Shown here: positions 4,595 to 18,901 of the stretch, piece by piece
How the letters are laid out: every line of letters starts with the position of its first letter
Numbering within the stretch: the stretch's first letter is position 1
Source: Anaeromyxobacter sp. RBG_16_69_14
GTDB taxonomy: Bacteria > Myxococcota > Myxococcia > Myxococcales > Anaeromyxobacteraceae
Length of the DNA: 38,495 nt
Direction of reading: 5' to 3'
Assembly (NCBI GenBank): GCA_001768075.1
Contig: MEMX01000095.1
Span: forward strand, 119,194-157,688
The notes under the pieces: generated by a model
The model's database searches: none
Told to the model about the DNA's origin: nothing
What the model saw: the letters and a program-made list of their open reading frames with translations, nothing else
Made by a program: the position numbers and the translations under genes

Positions 4595-5944
4595 CTACTC
4601 CACGGTCATCCTCCGGATGGTGCTGTTCTCCGAATCCACCACATAGATATTGCCGCGCCCGTCTACCGCCACGGCCGTGGCAGCATTGAACCGCGCGGTG
4701 GTGCCGATTCCGTCGACGCTGCCCGACTGCCCTGCCGCCCCCGCCAGAGTGCTCACCACCCCCACCGGAGTGATCCGCCGAACGGTATTGGAATCTGTCA
4801 CGTAGATGTTTCCGGATCCATCCAGGGCCAACCCGGCGGGCCTGCTGAACAGTGCGGCGGTGCCGGTCCCGTCGGTGCTGCCCGGCTGCCCTGGCGTTCC
4901 CGCCAACGTGCTCACCACTCCCGCCGGCGTGATCTTCCGAATGGTGCTGTTGCCCCAATCCGCCACATACACGTTCCCTGACACGTCCACGGCCACGGCG
5001 CCGGGGCTGTTGAATCGTGCAGCGGGGCCCGTGCCATCGGCGCTGCCCGGCTGCCCCACCGATCCCGCGAAGGTGCTCACCACCCCCGTCGAGGTGATCC
5101 TCCGGATGGTCTCGTTGCCACGATCCGTCACATAGACGTTCCCGGACCTGTCCACGGCGACGCCCCAGGGCCAGTTGAACCGCGCGGAGGCGCCCGTGCC
5201 ATCGGCGCTGCCCGACTGCATTGCCGTTCCCGCCAACGTGGTCACCGCCTGGTCCACGGTGATCTTCCGGATGGTGTTGGCGCCGAAATCCGCCACGTAG
5301 ACGTTCTCGCCCGCGTCCACGGCCACGCCGATAGGGTTGAGGAACCGTGCGTCGGCGCCCGTCCCGTCGACGATGCCAACTTGTTCTGCCGTTCCCGCGT
5401 AGGTGTCCACCACCCCCGCCGGCGTTGTCTTCCGGATGGTGGCGTTGCCCATATCCGCCACAAAGACGTTCCCGCCCGCGTCCACAGCCACGCCGAGGGG
5501 ATCGTTGAACCGCGCGGAAGCACCTCTGCCATCGGAGGTGCCAGGCTGCCCTGCCGTTCCCGCCAGCGTGCTCACCACCCCTGTGACGAAGGACGCGGTG
5601 ACCTCGCGGTCGCCATCCAGAATGACCCCGCACGTCTCGGCGCTCCCATAGTTGCAACCCGTGAATTCTGCGAACGACGACCCCTGATCAGCAGTCGCGG
5701 CGAGGTAGACGGTGCTCCTGGCCAGAAGCGGAAGAGCGCAGGTGCTGCCGCAGTCGATGTCGGAACCAGCCACTTTTCCGGAACCTCTGCCTGCTTTCTT
5801 GACGGATATCGTGTGGCACTCCCCCGAGGGGAAAGGACAATCGTCGCCTATGTTGCCTGGCCTGGTGCCGCAGCTCACGCAGGTCGTCATCAACGCGACC
5901 GCGAACATGGACCTGCACCAGAACGACCCATGCTGGCTGGTCAT
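4595..5944 (-). CDS. Secreted/lipoprotein NHL-repeat six-bladed beta-propeller
   Basis: Signal with candidate lipobox 'MTTCVSC'; six ~55-aa repeats 'VVSTLAGTxGQxGxxDGTGxxARFNxPxGVAVDxxGNVYVADxxNxTIRKITPAG'. Confidence 0.9.
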   Translation of the reverse strand: MTSQHGSFWCRSMFAVALMTTCVSCGTRPGNIGDDCPFPSGECHTISVKKAGRGSGKVAGSDIDCGSTCALPLLARSTVYLAATADQGSSFAEFTGCNYGSAETCGVILDGDREVTASFVTGVVSTLAGTAGQPGTSDGRGASARFNDPLGVAVDAGGNVFVADMGNATIRKTTPAGVVDTYAGTAEQVGIVDGTGADARFLNPIGVAVDAGENVYVADFGANTIRKITVDQAVTTLAGTAMQSGSADGTGASARFNWPWGVAVDRSGNVYVTDRGNETIRRITSTGVVSTFAGSVGQPGSADGTGPAARFNSPGAVAVDVSGNVYVADWGNSTIRKITPAGVVSTLAGTPGQPGSTDGTGTAALFSRPAGLALDGSGNIYVTDSNTVRRITPVGVVSTLAGAAGQSGSVDGIGTTARFNAATAVAVDGRGNIYVVDSENSTIRRMTVE

Positions 5945-6305: not shown

Positions 6306-6413
6306 GGGGAGAGTTTCTCCCCTCCGCTTGAGGCGCCGCAAGGCGCCGGACATCAGCTCACAGCGGCGACGGTGACGCTGGAGACTCACATCAACTGGTC
6401 GCCGCTGTGAGCT
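6306..6413 (-). terminator. Array of three hairpins spanning the 3' end of the lipid operon
   Basis: AGCTCACAGCGGCGAC/GTCGCCGCTGTGAGCT (16-bp perfect, 6355-6370 and 6398-6413), GGCGCC-gcaa-GGCGCC (6332-6347), GGGGAGA-gtt-TCTCCCC (6306-6322). Confidence 0.55.
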
Positions 6414-7422
6414 CGGCGATCGTGCCGGGAGCCTTGCGTCCTTTGCCACGGAAGCGGCGGTCGAGCCAGGCGACCGTCTCGTAGAGCGTCTCCTGCGGAT
6501 CGCGCGCGGCGAAGCCGAGCTCGCGCCCGGCCTTGGCGCTGTCGACGTAGAACCAGTGCTCGCCCATCTCGACCTCTTCGGTTGCGAGGGGCGCCTCGCT
6601 GCCGCGCCAGGCGTGGAACTTCTCGAGCAGTCGCGCGCCAGCGATGTTCACGGTCGACGGCAGGCGTACCACGGGCGGCGCGACGCCGGAGATGCGGGCC
6701 AGGCGGCCGAAGAGCTCCGCGAAGGTCATGTTCGCGCCACCGAGCAGGTACCGCTCGCCGGGGCGCCCCCTGGAGAGCGCCGCCGCGAAGGCCGCCGCCG
6801 CGTCGCGCACGTCGACGAAGGAGAGCCCGCCCGTCGGCATGGCCGGCACGCGCCGCTCCAGGAATTTGAGCACGACGTCGGTGGACGAGAGGCGCGCGTC
6901 GCCAGGGCCGAGCAGGAGCGACGGGTTCAGCACCACCACCGGGAACCCCGTGTCGCGGTGGAAGCGGAGCGCCGTCTTCTCCTGGAAGATCTTGGAGAGG
7001 TAGTAGGGCCAGCGCGCGACCACGCGGATCGGGTGGTCGTCCTCCTCGCTGTGGACCTTCTCCTCCCTCGAGATGCCGATGGTCCCCGAGCTGGAGGCGA
7101 GCACGAACCGCTTCACGCCGGCCGCGTGCGCGTCCTCGAGCAGCGTGCGCGTGCACTCCACGTGGAGCCGGTACAGCGCGGCCGGATCCCCGGGATCGAA
7201 GGAGACCCGGCCGGCGAGGTGGTAGACGGCCTCGATGCCCTGGAGCGAGCTCCGTACGGCCGCGCGATCTTCGAGTGGCGCGCGCAGGACCTCGGCCCCC
7301 AGCGCCTCGGCTGCGGAGGCGTCTCCGCGCACGATGAGGCGGATGCGATGGCCACTCCGGGCGAGGAGCGGTACGAGCGCCGAGCCGAGGAAGCCGGTGC
7401 CGCCGGTGACGAGGAGGTTCAC
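6391..7422 (-). CDS. NAD-dependent epimerase / extended SDR reductase
   Basis: '[17 protein letters not shown]' Rossmann motif, YYLSK catalytic motif; GTG start overlaps upstream stop (GTGA). Confidence 0.9.
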   Translation of the reverse strand: MNLLVTGGTGFLGSALVPLLARSGHRIRLIVRGDASAAEALGAEVLRAPLEDRAAVRSSLQGIEAVYHLAGRVSFDPGDPAALYRLHVECTRTLLEDAHAAGVKRFVLASSSGTIGISREEKVHSEEDDHPIRVVARWPYYLSKIFQEKTALRFHRDTGFPVVVLNPSLLLGPGDARLSSTDVVLKFLERRVPAMPTGGLSFVDVRDAAAAFAAALSRGRPGERYLLGGANMTFAELFGRLARISGVAPPVVRLPSTVNIAGARLLEKFHAWRGSEAPLATEEVEMGEHWFYVDSAKAGRELGFAARDPQETLYETVAWLDRRFRGKGRKAPGTIAELTAATS

Positions 7423-10400
7423 GATTCGTCCTCGCGGCCCCTGGCGTGCCGACCCTCACCACGGTCCTCTCCTTTCCAGGGAGAGGGTGACGAGAGCACT
7501 CCCCCTTCCTCCGCGGGACGAGAAGGTGACGAGATACCCTCTCCCTCCGCGGGACGAGAAGCCGGCGTAGAAGGATCGCTGGTGATCGAGGTGTGCCGAC
7601 CCTCACCCCGGCCCTCTCCCTTCCAGGGAGAGCGTGACGAGATCACTCCCGCTGGCTTCCCGATGGATCGAGAAGGCGTTGCCGAGACGGCCAGGTTCCG
7701 GACCGCCCGCTCCATGATCCTGGTCGCCTCCTTGTGCGCCTCGCCCTTGGGCAGCTCCGCCGTTCGGCGGCGCAGGTCCTCCACGCGGATGGGTTGCCCG
7801 ATGATCACCTCGAGCTTCGCCGATCTCGGCAACACGCTCCCCGCTGGCAGTGCCTGGAAGGTGCCGTGGATGTACACGGGCAGGGTGTCGACGCTGCAGT
7901 GGAGCGCGAGGTAGCCGGCCGTCGGCTTGAACTCCGCCATGGCGCCATCCCGGGAACGCGTACCTTCCGGAAACACGAGGACGTGCATGCCGCGCCGGAG
8001 CGTCTCGACGGCGGCGCGAAGGCTCTTCCTGACCGAGCCCTCCCGGTCCATCGGGATGAGGTTCGTGAAGTTCTCGAAGTAGGCGCGCTTGAGGGGCGTG
8101 TCGAAGAAGTAGTCGGCGGCCGCCAGCGCGGTGAGCTTCTCGCCTTGATCCCCCAGCGCTACCTTCACGAGGCCCATGTCGAGGTGGCTCGCGTGGTTCG
8201 CCACCACCAGGAAGTTCCGATCGCGCGGGATATGGGCTCCGCCGCGCACCGTCGTGTCGTAGAGCTCGCGGTAGAGGAACCGCTGGCCTGCGCCGAGCAG
8301 CTTTCGCCCGAGCGCCGCCAGCGGCTGCGGGACGGCCACGTCGCGCTCGGCCTCGGCGGGTGGTGGGTCCCGCGGTTTCGCCTCGGACTCCGGACGCCGC
8401 CTGGCCGCCGACACGACGCGCGAGAGCTCGGCCACGGTCTCGAGCTGGTGCAGCCCGTCGGTCGCGCTCGCGGGGACGCCCGCCTCCTCCAGCGCGGTGG
8501 CCAGCTCGGTGAGCATGAGAGAGTCGAAGCCGAGGTCGGCCGCGAGCTGGCTATGGTGCGCGACCTCGCCGCGCGGGCGCCTCGAGATCTCCGCCACCAG
8601 GTCGAGCAGCCACCCGTCCGATCGGCCGTCGCGCGCCGCCTCGCGCACCTTGGCCCCCTGGTGCGCGGCCGTCTCGAGCCGCTTGAGCTCCTCCACCACC
8701 CAACCCCGCTTCACCTTGCGGGTGGAGGTCCTGGGCAGCTCCTGCTCGGTCGTGTGCCAGACCTTGACGCGCTTGTGGAACGGCAGCGACGCGGACACTT
8801 CACGGACGTGCCTCTGGAGCAGCCGGCGCACCTCGCCGCGGTCGCGTTCCCTCCAGGCCGGAACGACCAGCATGGCTACCCTCTCGCCGTTGGCGTCGGG
8901 CAGGCCGACGACCGACAGCTCCTTCACGAGGTCGTCCGACCGGTACAGCTCCTCGATCTCGTCGGGGTACGCGTTCTTCCCGTCGGCGTCGATGACGACG
9001 TCCTTCTTGCGGCCCACCAGCGTGAGGCGACCGTCCGCGTCGAGCTTCCCCAGGTCGCCGGTGCGGAGCCAGCCGTCGACGAGGACGCTCCTCGTGAGGT
9101 CGCGATCGACCTCGGGCTCCCGCGCGCCAGCCTTCCAGTAGCCGAGCATCACGTTCGGCCCGCGCGCCCACACCTCGCCCACGCCGTTGGCGCCGGGCTC
9201 GTGGATGCGGAGCTCGATGCCAGGTAGGGGCGCGCCGACGCTGCCGACCCCGTCTTCAGGGGACGAGACCGCCAGCACCGGCGCCGCCTCCGTGAGCCCG
9301 TACCCCTCGTACAGGTCGAAGCCCAGCTCGTGGAAGGCCTTCTGCACCTCCGGGGAGAGGGCCGAACCGCCCGAGACGAGGATGCGTAGCCGCCCGCCCA
9401 TCCTTCGATGCACGGGCCAGAAGAGGAGCTTGCCCAGGTTCGCGCCCCACTCGTCGCGGAGCCAGGCGTTCGCGCCCATGAGCGCCTTGGCCGCGCTCTC
9501 CACCAGGCCGGGTCGCGCCGCGAGCTCCTGCGTGACGCGCCGGTGCAGGAGCGACCACAGCGCGGGGACGCCGATCATGGCGGTGACGCGACCGCTCTCG
9601 AGCGCGTCGCCGAGCGCGTCGGCGGTGAGCTCGTCCAGGTACTCGATCTCGGCGCCGCGCGCGAGCGGGACGAGCAGCCCACAGGTGAACTCGAAGGTGT
9701 GATGGAGAGGCAGCACGGAGAGGAGTCCGTCGCCGGGTCCTAGATCGAAGAGGGCGGCCAGCTTCGCCACCAGACTCGTGAAGTTGCGGTGCGCGAGCAT
9801 GACGCCCTTGGGCGTCCCGGTGGTGCCGCTCGTGAAGATGATCGACGCCACGTCCTCCGGCGCCGCGGCGTGCCCTGGGGCGCGTGTGGGATCGCCCGCG
9901 AGCGCGTCGGCGAGGAGCGCCGGCCGGGGGCCGTCGCCCGAAGCCCAGGCGCGTACGAGCTCCGGCACGCGCTCCGCCACCTCCTCCGAGAGCAGGGCGG
10001 CCCTGGCGCCGGCGCTGCGGGCGAGGTTCGCGAGCTCCGCCGGTGAGAGCTGCGCGTCGACCGGCACCGCCACGCCGCCCGCCAGCAGGATCCCGAAGAA
10101 CGCGATCGCCCACTCCGGCCGGTTCTCGCTGGCGAGGAGGACGCGGTCCCCGCGGGCGATGCCGCGCCCTGCGAGGAAGCCGGCCACGCGTTCCGCGAAG
10201 GCGCGCAGCTCGGCGTAGGTGAAGCGGTCCTTGCGCTCACCGCTCATGCGCAGCGCCACCCGCGTCCGGTGCGTCTCGCAGGTCGCGTGGAAGAGCTCGA
10301 GCAGGTCGCGGTGCTGCCGCACCGAGTGGACCTTCTTCCTCGCTTCCTCCTCGAGGGCGGGGAACACCCACTCCTCGAGGCCTTTCATGTGGACGTCGAG

Positions 10401-12101
10401 CCAGTACTCGCGCCAGTCGAGCTTCTCGGGATCCCAGGGCAGCCTGGCCTGGTCCGCCGGGGCCATGCGCGCGTACAGGTCGCGGACGTTGGCGCAGCGG
10501 AAGACGTACCGGTTGTCCCAGACGAACGGCATGAACAGCTCGAACAGCAGCTTCGTCTGGGCGAGCTTGCTCTCCACCTCGTCGAGCTTGTCGGCCGCCT
10601 GCGCGGCCAGGGCGGAGACGCGCGGAGCGCCCCAGCTCGGCGCCTCGTCGCGGAGCAGACGGCTGGCGGCGCGCGCCAGCTTCTCGAAGGCGGGGGCGCT
10701 GAAGGTCTCGTAGTGGCGTCGCGAGACGGGATAGGTCTCGCAGCGCGCCAGCAACGCGTTCAGGACCTTGTTGCCGTCCTCGCGCTTCTTGTAGAAGCGG
10801 CGCCGGTAGAGCCCCACCAGCTCGATGGTCCGGCGGCTGTAGAACGGGTTCACGTCGCCGGATGCCAGGTGATAAACGCGCTCGGGCGTGCCGGTGATCG
10901 CCTCGGCGGCGACGGCGATGGTGCCTGCCGCGACCAGGTCCACCGGGACGAGGTCGAGGATGGCGCGCTCGCCTATTGGGTAGACCCGGTGGCCCTTCAG
11001 ACCCAGGAAGGCGAGGGGTGCGCTGGTGGTGAAGCCCTCGTTCCAGCCGGGGAACGGGTAGCGCAGCGCCGTCTCGACGATGGAAGGGCGCACCACCGCG
11101 TACTTCACGCCGCCGCGCGCGATGGCTTGCTCGCCCAGGCTCTTCGTGTACGTGTAGGTGTTGGGCCAGCCCCAGTGGCGGGCGCGGTCCATGCCCAGCT
11201 CGACGAGGCGCTGCGAGAGCCACAGCCGCTTCTCGCGGCCGAGCGCGATCCGCTCGGTGCGGTCGTCTCCCGTGCCGCGGCCGCGCCCCTCCGCGCGGAG
11301 CCGCTCCTGCGCGCGCGCCCGCAGCCCCGAGAGGAGCGCCGCGTCCTCGGCGTCCTCGCGGATGCGCGCGATGCGCTTCTCGCAGTCGGCGAGCTCGCGG
11401 TCGAGGTCGAAGTCGCGCGCGTCGAGCGTCCCCGCGGTCGGACGGTCCTCCACGCCCTCGCGGCGCGGGAAGTAGCCCGCGATCTCCTCGTCCTCGAAGA
11501 CCACGCCGCTGCGGTTCCCCGCGACGAAGCAGGTCGAGACGTGCACGAGCGCGGCCCCGGTCGCGCGGCAGACGTCGACCGCGTGCTGCGCCCCGCTCAC
11601 GTTCACGCGGAGGGCCAGCTCGAGCGAGGGGTTGAAGTCGACCAGCCCGGCGCAATTCACCAGGGCGGCGAGCCGCGACATGATGGCGAGGTCCCTCTCC
11701 GACAGCCCGAAGAGCGGGACCGAGACATCACCGGGGACGGGGATGCACTTCTCCCGCATGAACGCGGCGAAGCGTGAGCCGTGCTGGGCGCGGAGGGGGT
11801 CGAAGGGGCGGCTCATCGCTACCTTGCCGAAGAAGCGCGCCTCCGCGGTGCCGCCCGTCCCCGGGCGCACCAGGACGAAGACCTTTCCCACCTCGGGGTA
11901 GCGGTGGAGCAGCATCGAGAGCGTCACCTTCCCGACGAAGCCGGTGGCGCCGGCGATCAGGATGGTGCGGCCGCGCAAGGCGGCGGCGACGTCGAGGATG
12001 TTCGTCTTTGGGCGAGGGGAGGGGGCGGCGGGACGCTCTCCGGGGCCCTGCGGCACGAGCGCGCCGTTCGGTTTCCCGTTCTTTCCGTGTCTGCCGTTCA
12101 T
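7419..12101 (-). CDS. elbD: Multifunctional fatty-acyl reductase - AMP-ligase - acyl carrier - PlsC acyltransferase (ElbD-like ether-lipid enzyme)
   Basis: Start MNGRHGKNG at 12101 overlapping the upstream stop (ATGA). Domains: '[35 protein letters not shown]' + 'YTYTKSLGE'; '[19 protein letters not shown]'; '[17 protein letters not shown]'; 'NHASHLDMG' + '[10 protein letters not shown]'. Symbol assigned by recalled similarity of domain order to M. xanthus ElbD; not searched. Confidence 0.85.
7445..7561. repeat. Dispersed palindromic repeat, copy 2, with internal partial tandem duplication
   Basis: gtgccgaccctcaccacggtcctctcctttccagggagagggtgacgag...; 'gtgacgaga..ctccgcgggacgagaag' block occurs twice in tandem. 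Confidence 0.8.
7591..7676. repeat. Dispersed palindromic repeat, copy 3
   Basis: gtgtgccgaccctcaccccggccctctcccttccagggagagcgtgacgagatcactccc...gagaagg; matches copies at 2772 and 7445. Confidence 0.8.
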
Positions 12102-13711
12102 CGGAGGTTCTGCGTCATGACGATCGGCGGGTGGTGGAGCATCGCGATCTGCGCCCCGCGGCCGTGAACCGCTCGAGCCATGTCGATCGCGTCCGAGAGC
12201 CGCTCCGCGCTCTCCCAGCCCATCAGGCGCGGCACGTGCTCGTTGTCGGCGCCCACGGCGATGATGCGCCCGAGGTGCTGCCGCCCGTTCTCGCCCCAGT
12301 ACCACATGAAGAACGGGTGCGCGCCGTGGTAGGCGTTCCCGGTCCGGTACATGTGCACGTAGCTCGGGTTCTCGGCGAGCTCGCGCTCGTACTTCGCCTC
12401 CAGCACCTTCGCGTCGCGCGTCTCGGGCAGGAGCCGGTGGAAGAACTCGATGTAGCTCGGGTGGTGGTCGGGGTCGAACTCGTCCGAGCAGGGGTGGGTG
12501 ATGATGAGCGTGCCGCCCTTCTTCACCAGAGGCTTGCCCCGGTAGAAGTTGAAGAAGTACCCGCAGGCCATCACCTGGACCAGGAGCGGGTTCAGGATGG
12601 AGTTGACGTTGTAGGGCGAGATGTACGGGATGCCCATGATGCCGATGTCGGCCTGGAAGTCGACGTCGACCGCGTACTGCTCCCAGCTCCTGGCCAGGAT
12701 CTTCCGGTGGGTGGGCTCGGTCTTGCCCGCGTGCACCGCGATCACCTCGTACGCCGCCGGGACCGCCTGGAAGATCTTCCTCTTGGCGGCGCGCGGTAGG
12801 TTCCGGAGCGCCGCGCGCATGCCGAAGAGCTTCAGCCGGTCCACCTCGGTCCACGCGTCCTCGCGCCTCATGAGGAAGTCGAGCGGGCCGTCGAACATGC
12901 GGTTGTTGATGGTGGTCTCCACGTGGAAGACGCAGAGGTGCTGGTCGATGACGCGTCCGATGCGCCCCACCGAGCGGTGCAGCTCCGAGTGCTCCGTGTC
13001 CATGTACGAGTCGCTCTTGCGGATGTGCTCCGGCGTGTGGTGCGCCTTCACCCCCTCGTAGTTGGTGAGCCCGGTGCCGACCGACTTGTGGCCACCGTCC
13101 ATGGGGACGAGGTTCACGTTCACGTAGACGAGGAGGTCCGACTCGGCGGCGCGGCGGTTCACCACCACCGGCTCTCCGTGCGCGGTCGTCCCCAGCGAGA
13201 CGAGGCCGTCGGGGTCCTCGGCGTCGTGGTTGTAGTAGCGGTCGGGGTAGAAGGCGTCGAAGATCCTGGAGCCCACCATCCGCCTCATCTCCGCTTCGGT
13301 CATGCGGCGGTGGAGGGAGATGGCGATGACGAGGTGCACGTCGTCCACGCCCGAATCTGCGAGCAGCTCCAGCAGGATCTCGAGCACCTGCTGGCGGACG
13401 TCCGGCGTCTTCATGGGCGGCAGCGGCAGCGAGATGTCGTCGAGGGCGATGGTCACCTTCATCCCCGGTACGAGCTGCGCGTGCAGCGGGTCGCAGCCCT
13501 CCGGGTGGTTCAGCGCCCAGCGGATGGCGGACTTCACGTTGGGCAGGCCGGCGATGGGCGGCTTCGGGTAGATGACCTTCGTGCCCACGGGGAGGTTCTC
13601 AAGGAGGAGGTCCTCGCCCGAGAACATCACGCGCGGCGCGGAGTCCTTGTCGATGGTGACGATGGGCTCCGTCTGCTCGTAAAGCCGGCTGAGGCGGGAG
13701 ACGGGGCGCAT
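12098..13711 (-). CDS. LarA-like / DUF2088 (lactate racemase N-terminal domain) protein
   Basis: 537-aa ORF from [13 protein letters not shown]; '[56 protein letters not shown]' is typical of the LarA N-terminal domain; '[24 protein letters not shown]'. Confidence 0.82.
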
Positions 13712-13793
13712 GGCTAGTGCTCCTTCGCACGTCGCGGGATCGAGCTCGGGTCGCGCGCGCACCATGCCAGGTCGATGGTCGTCATGCGCCGGG

Positions 13794-14483
13794 CTATCCC
13801 GTCGTGTCGAGGATGGGCCACTCGTAGGCGCGGGCCACGTTGCGCAGGCGAAGATCAGGGTTCACCGCGGCGGGGTGACCCACCACGGCGAGCATCGGGT
13901 AGTCGGAGAAGCTGTCGGAGTAGGCGTGGCTCTGGTCGAGCGCGAACCCCTCCCGCCCGCAGTACTCGCGGACGATGAGCGCCTTGTGTGCGCCCTCCAC
14001 GATGGGCGGAACCACGCGACCGGTCGCGACCCCCTCCACGAAGTGCATGCGGTTCGCGATGAGGTCGTCCGCGCCGAGGTGGCGCGCCAGCTCGCGAACG
14101 GTGAAGTCCAGCGCTCCTGTCACGAGGACGATGCGGCAGCCGGCGCGGCGCGCCTGCGCCAGGAGCTGCGGCGTCCCCGCGTGGATCGCGGGACGGAGCA
14201 CCTCGTCGAAGAGCTCGTGCGCCAGCTCCACCAGGCGGTCCTCCGAGATACCGCGGTAGGAGTCGTAGAAGACCTCGTTGAAGACCTTGCGGTTGACCTT
14301 GTCGAGCGCCCAGTAGAGCGGCGCCCCTGCCAGGGTCCTCGCCGTTCGCCAGGCGGTGCCGAAGATGCTCCCCTGATTCATCGCATAGAACGCGAAGGCG
14401 TGGACGATGTTCGTCCGTAGGAGGGTGCCGTCCACGTCGAAGAACGCGGCTCGGTTCGCTTGGGCCATGGGCTCTGCTGGCAT
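13794..14483 (-). CDS. HAD-IB family (SerB-like) phosphatase
   Basis: '[14 protein letters not shown]' motif I, '[38 protein letters not shown]', '[13 protein letters not shown]' motif. Confidence 0.9.
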
Positions 14484-14537
14484 TATTCCACTGTGCGTGC
14501 TGCTGTCAAAGAGAAGGATGCCCCATAGGGGCCGGCT

Positions 14538-15509
14538 TCAGACCAGCCCGTGCTCGCGATAGTAGCGCGCAGCGCGCGCGACCGACTCGGCGAGTGGGGT
14601 GGGAGCCGAAAAGCCCAGCAGCCGCTGGGCCTTGTCGGTGCAACAGGTCCAGCCGGGTGCAAGCAACTGGCGCGCCAGCTTGCGGTTGAGGGGAAGCCTG
14701 TGACCGCTGGTGTTCGAGACGGCATCGGCTGCCCAGGCCAGCCCGGTGAGGACCGCGGGCGGCACCGGCAGCGTGCGCGGCCTCACCCCGAGGGCTCGCG
14801 CCACCTCGCGCTGCAGTTGCTCGAAGGCGGTGCGCTCGCGCGAGGCGAGGAAGAAGGTCTCGCCCACCGCCTCCGGCCGCTCGCCGAGGAGGACGAAGCC
14901 GCGCGCGCAGTCGTCCACGTCGATCCAGGACAGGGGCCGCTCGGGGCCGAGGATGCGAAGGGCGATCCCCCTTGCCACGATGCGGAAGAAGAAGAGGTTC
15001 TCCCGGTCACCTGGGCCGATGATACGCGGCGGCCTTCCGACCGCCACCGGCAGCCGATCCGCGAACGAGCGCGCGATGCGCTCCGCCTCCGCCTTGGACT
15101 CGCCATACCACTCCGCGGGGGCGAAGGCCTCCTCCTCTCGCTTGCCGTGGCGTGACGGGCCCATCGAGGCGAGCGAGCCGGCCAGGACGAAGCGCTGCCG
15201 CGCGGCGCCGCCGGCGAGGCAAGCTGCGAGGAGGAGCCTGGTCGAGCCGGCATTCACGGACAAGAATGCCTCCCGATCGGAGGCCCGCCGGACCCCGGCC
15301 AGGTGGTAGACGAGCGGACAGCCCTCGACCGCCCGGCGCAGCGCGACAGGGTCCATGGCGTCCCCGCGCACGACCTCCACCCCCCGATCGAGCACGGACG
15401 CGTCGCCGCTCTCGCGGATCAGCGCGCGAACGCGGTGGCCGCCCGCGAGGAGCTCGCGCACCAGCGCCCGACCCAGGAAACCGCTGGCGCCCGTGACGAG
15501 CGCTGTCAT
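14538..15509 (-). CDS. NAD-dependent epimerase / 3beta-HSD-like SDR
   Basis: Start MTALVTGASGFLGRALVREL; catalytic 'WYGESK'; 'GRPPRIIGPGD'. The longer ORF to 15707 has an implausible N-terminal extension. Confidence 0.88.
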   Translation of the reverse strand: MTALVTGASGFLGRALVRELLAGGHRVRALIRESGDASVLDRGVEVVRGDAMDPVALRRAVEGCPLVYHLAGVRRASDREAFLSVNAGSTRLLLAACLAGGAARQRFVLAGSLASMGPSRHGKREEEAFAPAEWYGESKAEAERIARSFADRLPVAVGRPPRIIGPGDRENLFFFRIVARGIALRILGPERPLSWIDVDDCARGFVLLGERPEAVGETFFLASRERTAFEQLQREVARALGVRPRTLPVPPAVLTGLAWAADAVSNTSGHRLPLNRKLARQLLAPGWTCCTDKAQRLLGFSAPTPLAESVARAARYYREHGLV

Positions 15510-15757: not shown

Positions 15758-16390
15758 TCACTGAGGGTTCCGACCCCGAGCTGGCAGTTGTTGCTGCGGC
15801 TTCACGAGAGCGCGGGCCCAGGTGGGCACGCGCTCCCCGACGCTGACGCGGGAGCCGTCGACGAACATCGCGACAGGCTCGAACGGGCGGGTGGTGTCGC
15901 TGTTGTCATACATGACGACGTACGGGAGCTCGCGAAGCGCCCGCCGGAGGTTCTCGAGCGTGCGCGGGAACCGCGCCGTGAGCTTTTCCGTCGGTACGTC
16001 GTGGCCGCCGGTGGCGACGCGCTGCGCGACGCGAGCTTCCGACTGGTCGGCGTCTGCGAGGCCGATGAAGAGGAGGACGACGGTGTAGTCCCTGGTGACG
16101 GCGTCGCGAAGAAACGCGAGCTTCTCCCCTGCGGGGTCGGAGAAGACGGTCTCGAAGATGAAGCTCTCGCGGTCGTCGACGAGGGCCGTTCGCGCCTGCG
16201 CAGCGAGCGCCGCAGCTTCGTACGGGGCCGCGTCGAGTTCGCGAGCGAGGTCGTCGGCGTTGACGTAGGGGAGGTCGAGGTCCTGGAAGTAGGCGCGGTA
16301 CAAGCTGGTCTTCCCGGCTCCGTTCGGACCGGTGATCGCGATCATGAGCGGGCGCCGGTCGAGCGGCAGGGCGTCGACGAACGAGGTCAT
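15758..16390 (-). CDS. Zeta-toxin-family P-loop protein (putative toxin)
   Basis: Walker A 'ITGPNGAGKTS', 'ADDLARELD', 'ESFIFETVFSDPAGEKLAFLRDA'; directly downstream of the ParD-like gene. Confidence 0.8.
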   Translation of the reverse strand: MTSFVDALPLDRRPLMIAITGPNGAGKTSLYRAYFQDLDLPYVNADDLARELDAAPYEAAALAAQARTALVDDRESFIFETVFSDPAGEKLAFLRDAVTRDYTVVLLFIGLADADQSEARVAQRVATGGHDVPTEKLTARFPRTLENLRRALRELPYVVMYDNSDTTRPFEPVAMFVDGSRVSVGERVPTWARALVKPQQQLPARGRNPQ

Positions 16391-16879: not shown

Positions 16880-18901
16880 GTGTCCGCGCTCCATCGCTCC
16901 ACCTGCCCGCATGACTGCCCCGACGCGTGTGGCCTCCTCGTCGAGGTGCAGGACGGTCGAGCGGTCGCCGTGCGCGGCGATCCCGACCACCCGTGGTCGA
17001 AGGGATCGCTCTGCCCCAAGGTGACGCGCTACCACGCGACGGTGCACGCGCCGTCGCGGCTCCTCACGCCGCTCCTGCGGGACGGGCCGAAGGGGTTGGG
17101 CGCGTTCCGCCGGGCGAGCTGGGACGAGGCCATCGAGGCCATCGCGGCACGCTGGAGGCTCATCCTGGGGGAGCACGGGGCGGAGGCGATCCTGCCGTAC
17201 TCGTACGCGGGCACCATGGGGCTCGTGCAGCGCAACGCCGGGCATGCCTTCTTCCATGCGCTCGGCGCCTCGCGGCTCGACCGGACCATCTGCTCGCCGG
17301 GGCAGGACGCGGGCTGGAAGGCGCTGATGGGTGACACGGTCGCCGTCGATCCCGAGGAGGCGAGCGAGAGCGATCTGGTGGTGCTGTGGGGCATCGACGC
17401 GGTGGCGACCAACATCCACTTCATCGCGCGCGCCAAGGCGGCGAGGGCGCGCGGAGGGCGCATCCTGCTCGTCGAGACCTACGCCACGCCCACCGCGGCG
17501 GTGGCGGATCGGGTCTTCCTGGTCCGGCCCGGATCGGACGGTGTCCTGGCGCTCGGTGTCATGCACGTCCTCGCGCGCGAGGGCTGGGTGGACCGAGCTT
17601 TCGTCGCGGCGCACGTGCAAGGTTACGAGGATCTGGCGCGCGAGGTGCTCCCGGAGTGGACGCCGGAACGGACCGCGGAGGCCACCGGGCTCACCCCGGC
17701 GGAGGTGATCGCGCTGGCGACCGAGCTGGGCCGCGCCCGCGCGCCGTTCCTGAGGGTGGGGAGCGGCCTCTCGCGGTACGGGAACGGCTCGATGAACGTG
17801 CGCGCCATCGTCTGCATCCCAGCCCTGCTCGGCGCCTGGGCCAAGCGAGGCGGCGGGGCTCTCTGCAGCACCTCGTCGAGCCAGGCCTTCGACACGTCGG
17901 TCGTCACGCGGGAGGACTTCCAGCCCCGCCCGACCCGGCTCGTCAACATGTGCCGGCTGGGCCATGCGCTCAACGAGCTCGACGGCCCGCGGGTCATGTC
18001 GCTGTACGTGTACAACTCGAACCCGGCCGCCGTGGCGCCGGACCAGAACGCGGTCCTGGAGGGCCTGGCGCGCGAGGACCTGTTCACGGTGGTGCACGAG
18101 CGCTTCCCGACCGACACGGCGCGCTTCGCCGACGTGGTGCTGCCCGCCACCTCGACGCTGGAGCACTCCGATCTCTTCCGGTCGTACGGCCAGTATGCCG
18201 TGCAGCGGACGCGCGCCGTGATCCCGCCCGTCGGCGAGGCGAGGCCGAACTGGGAGGTGTTCCAGCTCCTCGCGCGCACCATGGGCCTCGACCATCCCTT
18301 CTTCCGGCTCTCCGCCGACGACCTCGTCGATCTCTTGCTGGCGAAGCCGGCGCCACTTCGAGAGGGGCTCGACCGCGCCGCCCTCGAGCAGGGGAGGGCG
18401 GTGTCGCTCAGGCTACCCGAGGGCGCGAAGACACGTTTCCGCACGCCTTCGGGGAAGATCGAGATCCTGAACCCCCGGCTCCGGCATCCGCTGCCTCGGG
18501 CGCTTCCGACGCACGTCGAGGCCTCGCGCACGCAGTATCCGCTCCGGCTCCTCACCGCCCCGTCGCTGCACGGGCTCAACTCTTCCTTTCTGCAGGAGCG
18601 CGAGGATCTGCGGAAGAGGGCCGGGCCGATGGTCCTGAGAATGAGCCCGAGCGACGCGGCGGAGCGCGGGCTCGCCGACGGCGATCTGGTGCAGGCCTGG
18701 AACGAGCTCGGCGAGGTGGCCTTCACCCTCGAGGTGACGGGAAACGTCCCCGCGGGCGTCATTGTCGCGCCGGGCGTGCGCCGCCTGGATGACGCGCGCG
18801 GCCCTCGCACCGTGAATGCGCTCACCTCGCAGCGCCTCACCGACGAGGGTGCCGGAAGCACCTTCTACGACAACGCGGTGGACGTCCGACGGGCCCAATA
18901 G
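16880..18901 (+). CDS. Molybdopterin-dependent oxidoreductase (formate-dehydrogenase-like, COG0243)
   Basis: 4Fe-4S motif 'CPHDCPDACGLLVEV...GSLCPK', 'TICSPGQDAGWKALMG', C-terminal molydopterin-binding 'MVLRMSPSDAAERGLADGDLVQAWNELGEV'. Confidence 0.93.
   Translation: MSALHRSTCPHDCPDACGLLVEVQDGRAVAVRGDPDHPWSKGSLCPKVTRYHATVHAPSRLLTPLLRDGPKGLGAFRRASWDEAIEAIAARWRLILGEHGAEAILPYSYAGTMGLVQRNAGHAFFHALGASRLDRTICSPGQDAGWKALMGDTVAVDPEEASESDLVVLWGIDAVATNIHFIARAKAARARGGRILLVETYATPTAAVADRVFLVRPGSDGVLALGVMHVLAREGWVDRAFVAAHVQGYEDLAREVLPEWTPERTAEATGLTPAEVIALATELGRARAPFLRVGSGLSRYGNGSMNVRAIVCIPALLGAWAKRGGGALCSTSSSQAFDTSVVTREDFQPRPTRLVNMCRLGHALNELDGPRVMSLYVYNSNPAAVAPDQNAVLEGLAREDLFTVVHERFPTDTARFADVVLPATSTLEHSDLFRSYGQYAVQRTRAVIPPVGEARPNWEVFQLLARTMGLDHPFFRLSADDLVDLLLAKPAPLREGLDRAALEQGRAVSLRLPEGAKTRFRTPSGKIEILNPRLRHPLPRALPTHVEASRTQYPLRLLTAPSLHGLNSSFLQEREDLRKRAGPMVLRMSPSDAAERGLADGDLVQAWNELGEVAFTLEVTGNVPAGVIVAPGVRRLDDARGPRTVNALTSQRLTDEGAGSTFYDNAVDVRRAQ

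Follow-up and report, generated by a model that had tools for sequence, protein, structure and literature searches.

The window analysed here is a stretch of 38,495 nucleotides from Anaeromyxobacter sp. RBG_16_69_14, whose genome comprises 5.64 Mb in 157 contigs. Between positions 6391 and 15509 it holds five co-directional genes on the minus strand. The initial annotation had described them as SDR, HAD-IB, LarA-like, fusion, and SDR genes, and both the open reading frames and the domain HMMs agree with this description. From the first gene to the last, the operon reads as follows.

14538-15509, minus strand: elbA orthologue, an extended SDR of the NAD-dependent epimerase/dehydratase family (Pfam Epimerase, 1.8e-31)
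13794-14483, minus strand: elbB orthologue, a HAD-IB phosphohydrolase (TIGR01490, 135.8 bits, cut-off 98.3; Pfam HAD, 2.1e-36)
12098-13765, minus strand: elbC orthologue, LarA superfamily, LarAH14/15/16 type (NF052592; Lar_N, 6.1e-36)
7419-12101, minus strand: elbD orthologue, a FAR / acyl-CoA (ACP) ligase / ACP / PlsC fusion of 1560 residues (Pfam)
6391-7422, minus strand: elbE orthologue, an extended SDR (Pfam Epimerase, 5.7e-36)

The stop and start codons overlap at ATGA (12098-12101) and GTGA (7419-7422), as had been noted before, and the remaining intergenic gaps are 28 and 54 bp. The true start of ElbC is probably Met19 (about 13711), because of its alignment with relatives. An elbA orthologue was found at the matching place in locus L048 and in the Myxococcus and Corallococcus loci. 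For ElbE, the nearest curated model is HpnA, and its score of 251 bits lies under the HpnA cut-off (367.65). Directly upstream of elbA and on the same strand, there is a Zeta-toxin-like P-loop kinase (15758-16390, Pfam Zeta_toxin 2.9e-12), and a molybdopterin oxidoreductase is encoded on the plus strand at 16880-18901. Downstream of the operon and outside it, an NHL-repeat protein with 165-bp tandem units is encoded on the minus strand (4595-5944).

The domains of ElbD are arranged in the order FAR, ACS, ACP, and AGPAT-like, which is the elb-type order according to Pfam matches and motifs.

10926-11957, minus strand: FAR (thioester reductase, NAD_binding_4), residues 49-392 (Pfam 1.9e-43; GATGFVGK at 51, YTKS at 318)
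9135-10289, minus strand: AMP-binding (adenylation) domain, residues 605-989 (Pfam 1.1e-83; a ten-residue motif at 757)
8415-8612, minus strand: acyl-carrier domain, residues 1164-1229 (PP-binding 4.8e-9; GFDSLML at 1191)
7869-8252, minus strand: PlsC acyltransferase, residues 1284-1411 (Acyltransferase 1e-22; NHASHLD at 1302, FPEGTR at 1377)
7419-7691, minus strand: variable C-terminal tail of about 90 residues, derived from a dispersed repeat (repeat family D4)

The motifs for all four activities are intact, among them the ACP serine, NHASHLD, and FPEGTR. The FAR, ACP, and PlsC domains, on which the initial annotation depended, were all matched by their models; the Pfam Sterile match lies under its cut-off. 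ElbD is 55.8% identical to its L048 orthologue over 1463 residues, and its homology to relatives ends near residue 1470. Two D4 copies lie inside the tail (7443-7515 and 7590-7662), and a third copy is found at 2772-2844. The D4 repeat is GC-rich and reads as a run of 12 residues. In a congener (G001), ElbD has a different low-complexity tail that ends in the same GTGA overlap.

The elbA-elbE operon of Myxococcus xanthus reportedly goes back to work by Lorenzen et al. in 2014. Its genes, elbA (SDR), elbB (HAD), elbC ("unknown"), elbD (FAR-ACS-ACP-AT), and elbE (SDR) (PMC9131029), stand in the same order as those of the window, where all five share one strand. Orthologues were found in the named Myxococcus loci L067, L068, and L070, and the identities, measured against these loci and not against the M. 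xanthus sequence itself, are about 52-66% (about 53% for ElbA, about 64% for ElbB, 66% for ElbC, about 55% for ElbD, and about 56% for ElbE). In addition, gene content and order are conserved, as far as the contigs reach, in L048 and in the named loci of Myxococcus, Pyxidicoccus, and Corallococcus. Identity to the window's genes across these loci is about 64-66% for elbC and about 55% for elbD. The likeness to the M. xanthus ElbD domain set that had been noticed at first thus goes beyond resemblance. Gene order, domains, and the Myxococcus orthologues indicate that the window locus is almost certainly an orthologous elb operon.

Relatives of ElbC are encoded in at least 578 matched stretches of GTDB species genomes, and elbC is adjacent to elbD, beyond what chance would give, in nearly every relative's locus with a readable downstream side. 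Among 34 well-covered loci (at least 9 kb on either side of elbC), elbB lay no more than 10 kb from elbC in 33, elbD in 28, elbE in 26, and elbA in 9. By this measure of gene neighbourhood, the elb core is elbB-C-D-E and elbA is restricted, which fits the observation that elbA insertions left the ether lipids of M. xanthus unaffected (PMC9131029). Furthermore, elbD was found elsewhere in the genome in six of the six genomes without a linked copy. It was not found in two ElbC-negative genomes (G006 and G037), nor in one ElbC-positive draft (L094). On the basis of synteny and 17 genomes or loci, two pairs of which look like one genome each, ElbC tracks ElbD even when the genes are unlinked. The neighbours of the unlinked ElbC copies (L054, L059, and L094) gave no hint of an alternative pathway. 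From this genomic association, we consider it rather likely that ElbC acts in the ether-lipid pathway.

In M. xanthus, ElbD is the chief requirement for alkyl-ether lipids, most of which depend on it, and ElbE also matters; in vitro, only the ACS and ACP activities of ElbD have been shown (PMC9131029). There the AGPS homologue plays a minor part, ElbD has no known ether-bond-forming domain, and the elbC product was left as "unknown" (PMC9131029). Insertions in elbB, the effects of which were ascribed to polarity, were partly rescued by expression of elbD alone (PMC9131029); ElbC is therefore perhaps not an absolute requirement. No paper linking LarA or the nickel-pincer nucleotide (NPN) to elb was found in our literature search, outside which lay the original elb paper and most subscription papers.

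The CarF and AGPS routes to ether lipids were sought in the source genome (G000). CarF (PF10520) is absent from it and from every genome searched of its family, and is present in eight other genomes of the order; CarF-dependent plasmalogen synthesis was therefore rejected here. The FAD-oxidase_C proteins of the source genome have EHG(V/I)G where a C-terminal motif is readable; the match on contig C147 gave no motif, and one weak sixth match was left out. The AGPS signature SHHHGVG was seen in none of the FAD-oxidase proteins read, and AGPS-type ether synthesis was likewise rejected on the matches read. A second strong FAR was not found in this genome. AGPS-type FAD proteins with SHHHGVG do occur in other families of the order (L173 in G024 and L175 in G030). 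Because CarF is absent and no AGPS-type protein was seen, plasmalogens are unlikely in the source organism. Alkyl-ether lipids are possible, and if they or other ether lipids are made here, the gene content points to elb as the likeliest of the known routes.

The operon might instead yield fatty aldehydes, fatty alcohols, or another modified acyl lipid in this host. Ether lipids were undetected in Pontiella, which has elbD homologues (PMC11868695), M. xanthus needs ElbD for an iso-15:0 aldehyde (PMC9131029), and we found no report of ether lipids for Anaeromyxobacter in the literature. However, the orthology with the Myxococcus operon is one-to-one and full-length with conserved order, and the whole elb operon also occurs in several genomes of Acidobacteria subdivision 4, a group with ether-linked lipids (PMC10087280). 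We regard such a product without ether lipids as very unlikely.

The third gene had been called LarA-like, and ElbC indeed scores 850 bits against NCBIfam NF052592 ("NPN-dependent hydroxyacid isomerase, LarAH14/15/16"; cut-off 740). Seven elb-type ElbC homologues from Myxococcota and Acidobacteriota were tested against this model, and all lie above the cut-off. The AlphaFold2 model of ElbC (pLDDT 87.4, pTM 0.87) has as its best PDB match in Foldseek 9q3k (E 1.8e-32, TM 0.86 by target), a holo LarA-like NPN enzyme with a single catalytic histidine, which ranked above every other PDB entry. Thus ElbC is a LarA-superfamily protein by its predicted fold and the curated family model. A diverged LarAH14/15/16-type paralogue with about 30% identity is encoded at 9116-10609 of L051 (340.7 bits, under the NF052592 cut-off). 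The locus of this L036/L051 paralogue is not elb, and its neighbours gave no hint of another pathway. Second copies resembling it are also found in G098, G099, and G102.

The putative active site was mapped by profile alignment to 6c1w, 2yjg, and 9q2u, with the numbering of Lactiplantibacillus plantarum LarA.

13037-13438, minus strand: putative NPN-site region of ElbC (profile alignment; conservation in sets A1 and A2)
13436-13438, minus strand: D110, aligned with LarA D72
13427-13429, minus strand: L113, at the position of LarA R75
13310-13312, minus strand: H152, aligned with LarA H108 (catalytic histidine)
13112-13114, minus strand: N218, at the position of LarA H174 (second catalytic histidine)
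13085-13087, minus strand: K227, aligned with LarA K184 (cofactor lysine)
13037-13039, minus strand: H243, aligned with LarA H200 (nickel ligand)

D110, H152, N218, K227, and H243 are invariant in 69 of 69 ElbC homologues (set A2). This set was retrieved with the motifs N[LF]VPM[DN]GG and HP..MWY, and conservation within these two motifs is therefore in part built in. The mapped sites are kept too in 14 relatives from a protein search that were selected without motifs (set A1), and the lysine, the nickel-ligand histidine, the aspartate, and the first catalytic histidine are invariant in them. At position 113, all 69 homologues have Leu, Val, or Met and never Arg. From these alignments together with the predicted fold, we consider it quite probable that ElbC binds NPN.

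By its aligned residues, ElbC is not classed as a racemase, because the H174 position is occupied by N218 and only H152 of the two catalytic histidines is present. In a LarA-like subfamily with the same Asn substitution, two-way acid/base catalysis is lost (PMC12611868), and LarA homologues (LarAHs) without H174 have been suggested to be capable of another hydride-mediated reaction (PMC7583248). ElbC fits this class, and its predicted site is more hydrophobic. In LarA Ip, R75 binds the NPN phosphate and the substrate carboxylate (PMC12611868). The hydrophobic residue at this position in all homologues argues for a non-carboxylate substrate, perhaps a lipid; alternatively, the loss of R75 could mean weaker NPN binding.

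ElbC might be a conventional NPN isomerase of a 2-hydroxy fatty acyl thioester, or of a free 2-hydroxy acid, which supplies or edits the acyl chain and has no part in the ether bond. All characterised LarA-family enzymes are 2-hydroxy acid isomerases (PMC7583248, PMC11770544), NCBIfam named NF052592 after this activity, and a thioester substrate would do without the lost carboxylate-binding arginine. However, two-way inversion is unlikely with Asn in place of the second catalytic histidine in every homologue, and LarAH14 from Frankia was inactive on the hydroxyacids tested (PMC7583248). The linkage to ElbD and ElbB also speaks against an isomerase, and we noticed no hydroxylase gene that recurred at the loci. 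We therefore take this explanation to be unlikely.

The genes for NPN supply were surveyed in 156 genomes of Myxococcota. Of the 122 genomes that encode full-length ElbC, 119 also have LarB, against 23 of the 34 that do not encode it (Fisher p 2.8e-6, uncorrected for phylogeny). Outside the window's order, the counts are 10 of 10 ElbC-positive and 16 of 27 ElbC-negative genomes, again uncorrected for kinship. The three ElbC-positive genomes without LarB above the cut-off are G027, G068, and G137. In nine genomes (G000, G026, G029, G030, G033, G035, G036, G038, and G039), ElbC is the sole Lar_N protein, and LarC and LarE are present. Four other genomes (G006, G011, G015, and G037) keep LarC and LarE and have no Lar_N protein, so the NPN genes need not mean a partner in ElbC. 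For the same reason, the presence of LarB, LarC, and LarE alone was rejected as proof of NPN use. Searches of 83 elb or ElbC loci found no lar genes, and lar genes inside elb loci were accordingly discarded as direct evidence for NPN.

In the source genome, a larE-larB-larC cluster lies on contig C126 (L047, 7306-10251). Its LarC stops where LarC2 should begin, and the C-terminal half is missing; LarC2 is retained in nine relatives and in G006. Three LarE matches in this genome exceed the cut-off, two of them on contigs other than C126, and most of the relatives listed have one. The C126 cluster may be an acquired, decaying, foreign, or contaminant copy. Because LarC ends before LarC2, NPN supply in the source genome is uncertain.

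These observations bear on whether ElbC has kept NPN chemistry at all. It could be a structural or regulatory partner of ElbB and ElbD, with the ether bond made by ElbD and ElbE alone. The partial rescue of polar elbB mutants by ElbD fits such a role, and so do the loss of both R75 and H174, the three ElbC-positive genomes without LarB, and the truncated LarC. A further point against an NPN-using ElbC is the view of Desguin et al. that NPN is not used by the LarAHs of group 16 (PMC7583248). Nevertheless, the cofactor lysine, the nickel-ligand histidine, and the catalytic histidine are invariant across Myxococcota and Acidobacteriota, a pattern that would be difficult to account for had the site not been under selection, and LarB is kept in nearly all ElbC-positive genomes. 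Loss of the chemistry is thus quite unlikely in our judgment. Our proposal is an elb operon in which ElbC works in the ether-lipid pathway as an NPN enzyme, and we put the probability of this reading at roughly 55%.

The initial annotation also suggested activation and reduction of fatty acids on an internal carrier, acylation of glycerol, and removal of phosphate, and these roles are plausible for the window operon. In the proposed pathway, an iso-branched fatty acid would be adenylated by ElbD and then loaded on its own ACP. The FAR domain would reduce part of the acyl chains to aldehyde or alcohol, and the PlsC domain would acylate a glycerol(-phosphate) acceptor. ElbC with its NPN might remove a hydride from the alcohol at C2 of the acylated glycerol and return it later. 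Such an oxidation would give a dihydroxyacetone-like intermediate in which alkoxyl could replace acyl, much as in the flavin-dependent reaction of AGPS on acyl-DHAP; the AGPS exchange has a ketone substrate and leaves net redox unchanged (PMC3509576). Alternatively, ElbC might deliver a hydride to an aldehyde-derived intermediate and so allow ether formation. ElbE would reduce a keto intermediate, and for the synthesis of neutral ether lipids ElbB would remove the phosphate. The NPN cofactor is open to attack by sulfite at a carbon, and the NPN of LarA-Sp carried an apparently covalent ligand (PMC12611868). It is conceivable that ElbC itself makes lipid ether bonds by acting on the glycerol backbone or an aldehyde-derived hemiacetal, with NPN serving as hydride acceptor and donor or as an electrophilic scaffold. 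We hold this specific ether-forming hydride chemistry to be doubtful.

The operon itself is of the already known elb type, and the new point that we propose is ElbC as a candidate NPN enzyme; elbC may be the most informative gene of the operon. The conversion of fatty acids to glycerol ethers in aerobic bacteria has a gap, to which ElbC offers a specific candidate. If the ether-forming reading is true, aerobic bacteria would have a nickel-dependent route to ether lipids, and ElbC would be, to our knowledge, the first NPN enzyme other than a racemase or epimerase. If ElbC is an NPN enzyme, an orphan branch of LarA without a known substrate would gain a pathway. Furthermore, the elb genes have been discussed as the origin of the ether bonds of Acidobacteria and of branched GDGTs, lipids that serve as climate proxies (PMC10087280, PMC11868695).

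Among known systems, AGPS (alkyl-DHAP synthase) and the PlsA/Ger ester reductases are alternative enzymes that form lipid ether bonds. We know of no sequence relation of AGPS or PlsA/Ger to ElbC or ElbD. Compared with elbA-elbE of M. xanthus (MIBiG BGC0000871), the window locus agrees in gene content (five of five), gene order, strand, and ElbD domain order. However, CarF is missing from the window's host, no AGPS operon was seen there, and its ElbD has a repeat-derived C-terminal tail. With LarAH groups 14/15/16 (NF052592; PMC7583248), ElbC shares a score above the model cut-off. Compared with LarA-Sp and LarA-Bw (PDB 9q2u/9q3k and 9q3j; PMC12611868), it has the same fold, cofactor lysine, nickel-ligand histidine, single catalytic histidine, and Asn in place of the second histidine. 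The identity is about 20%, and the loop preceding GGxK has one residue fewer in ElbC than in LarA. Those two enzymes have Arg or Lys at the R75 position, where ElbC is hydrophobic, and their genomic context is carbohydrate, whereas that of ElbC is lipid.
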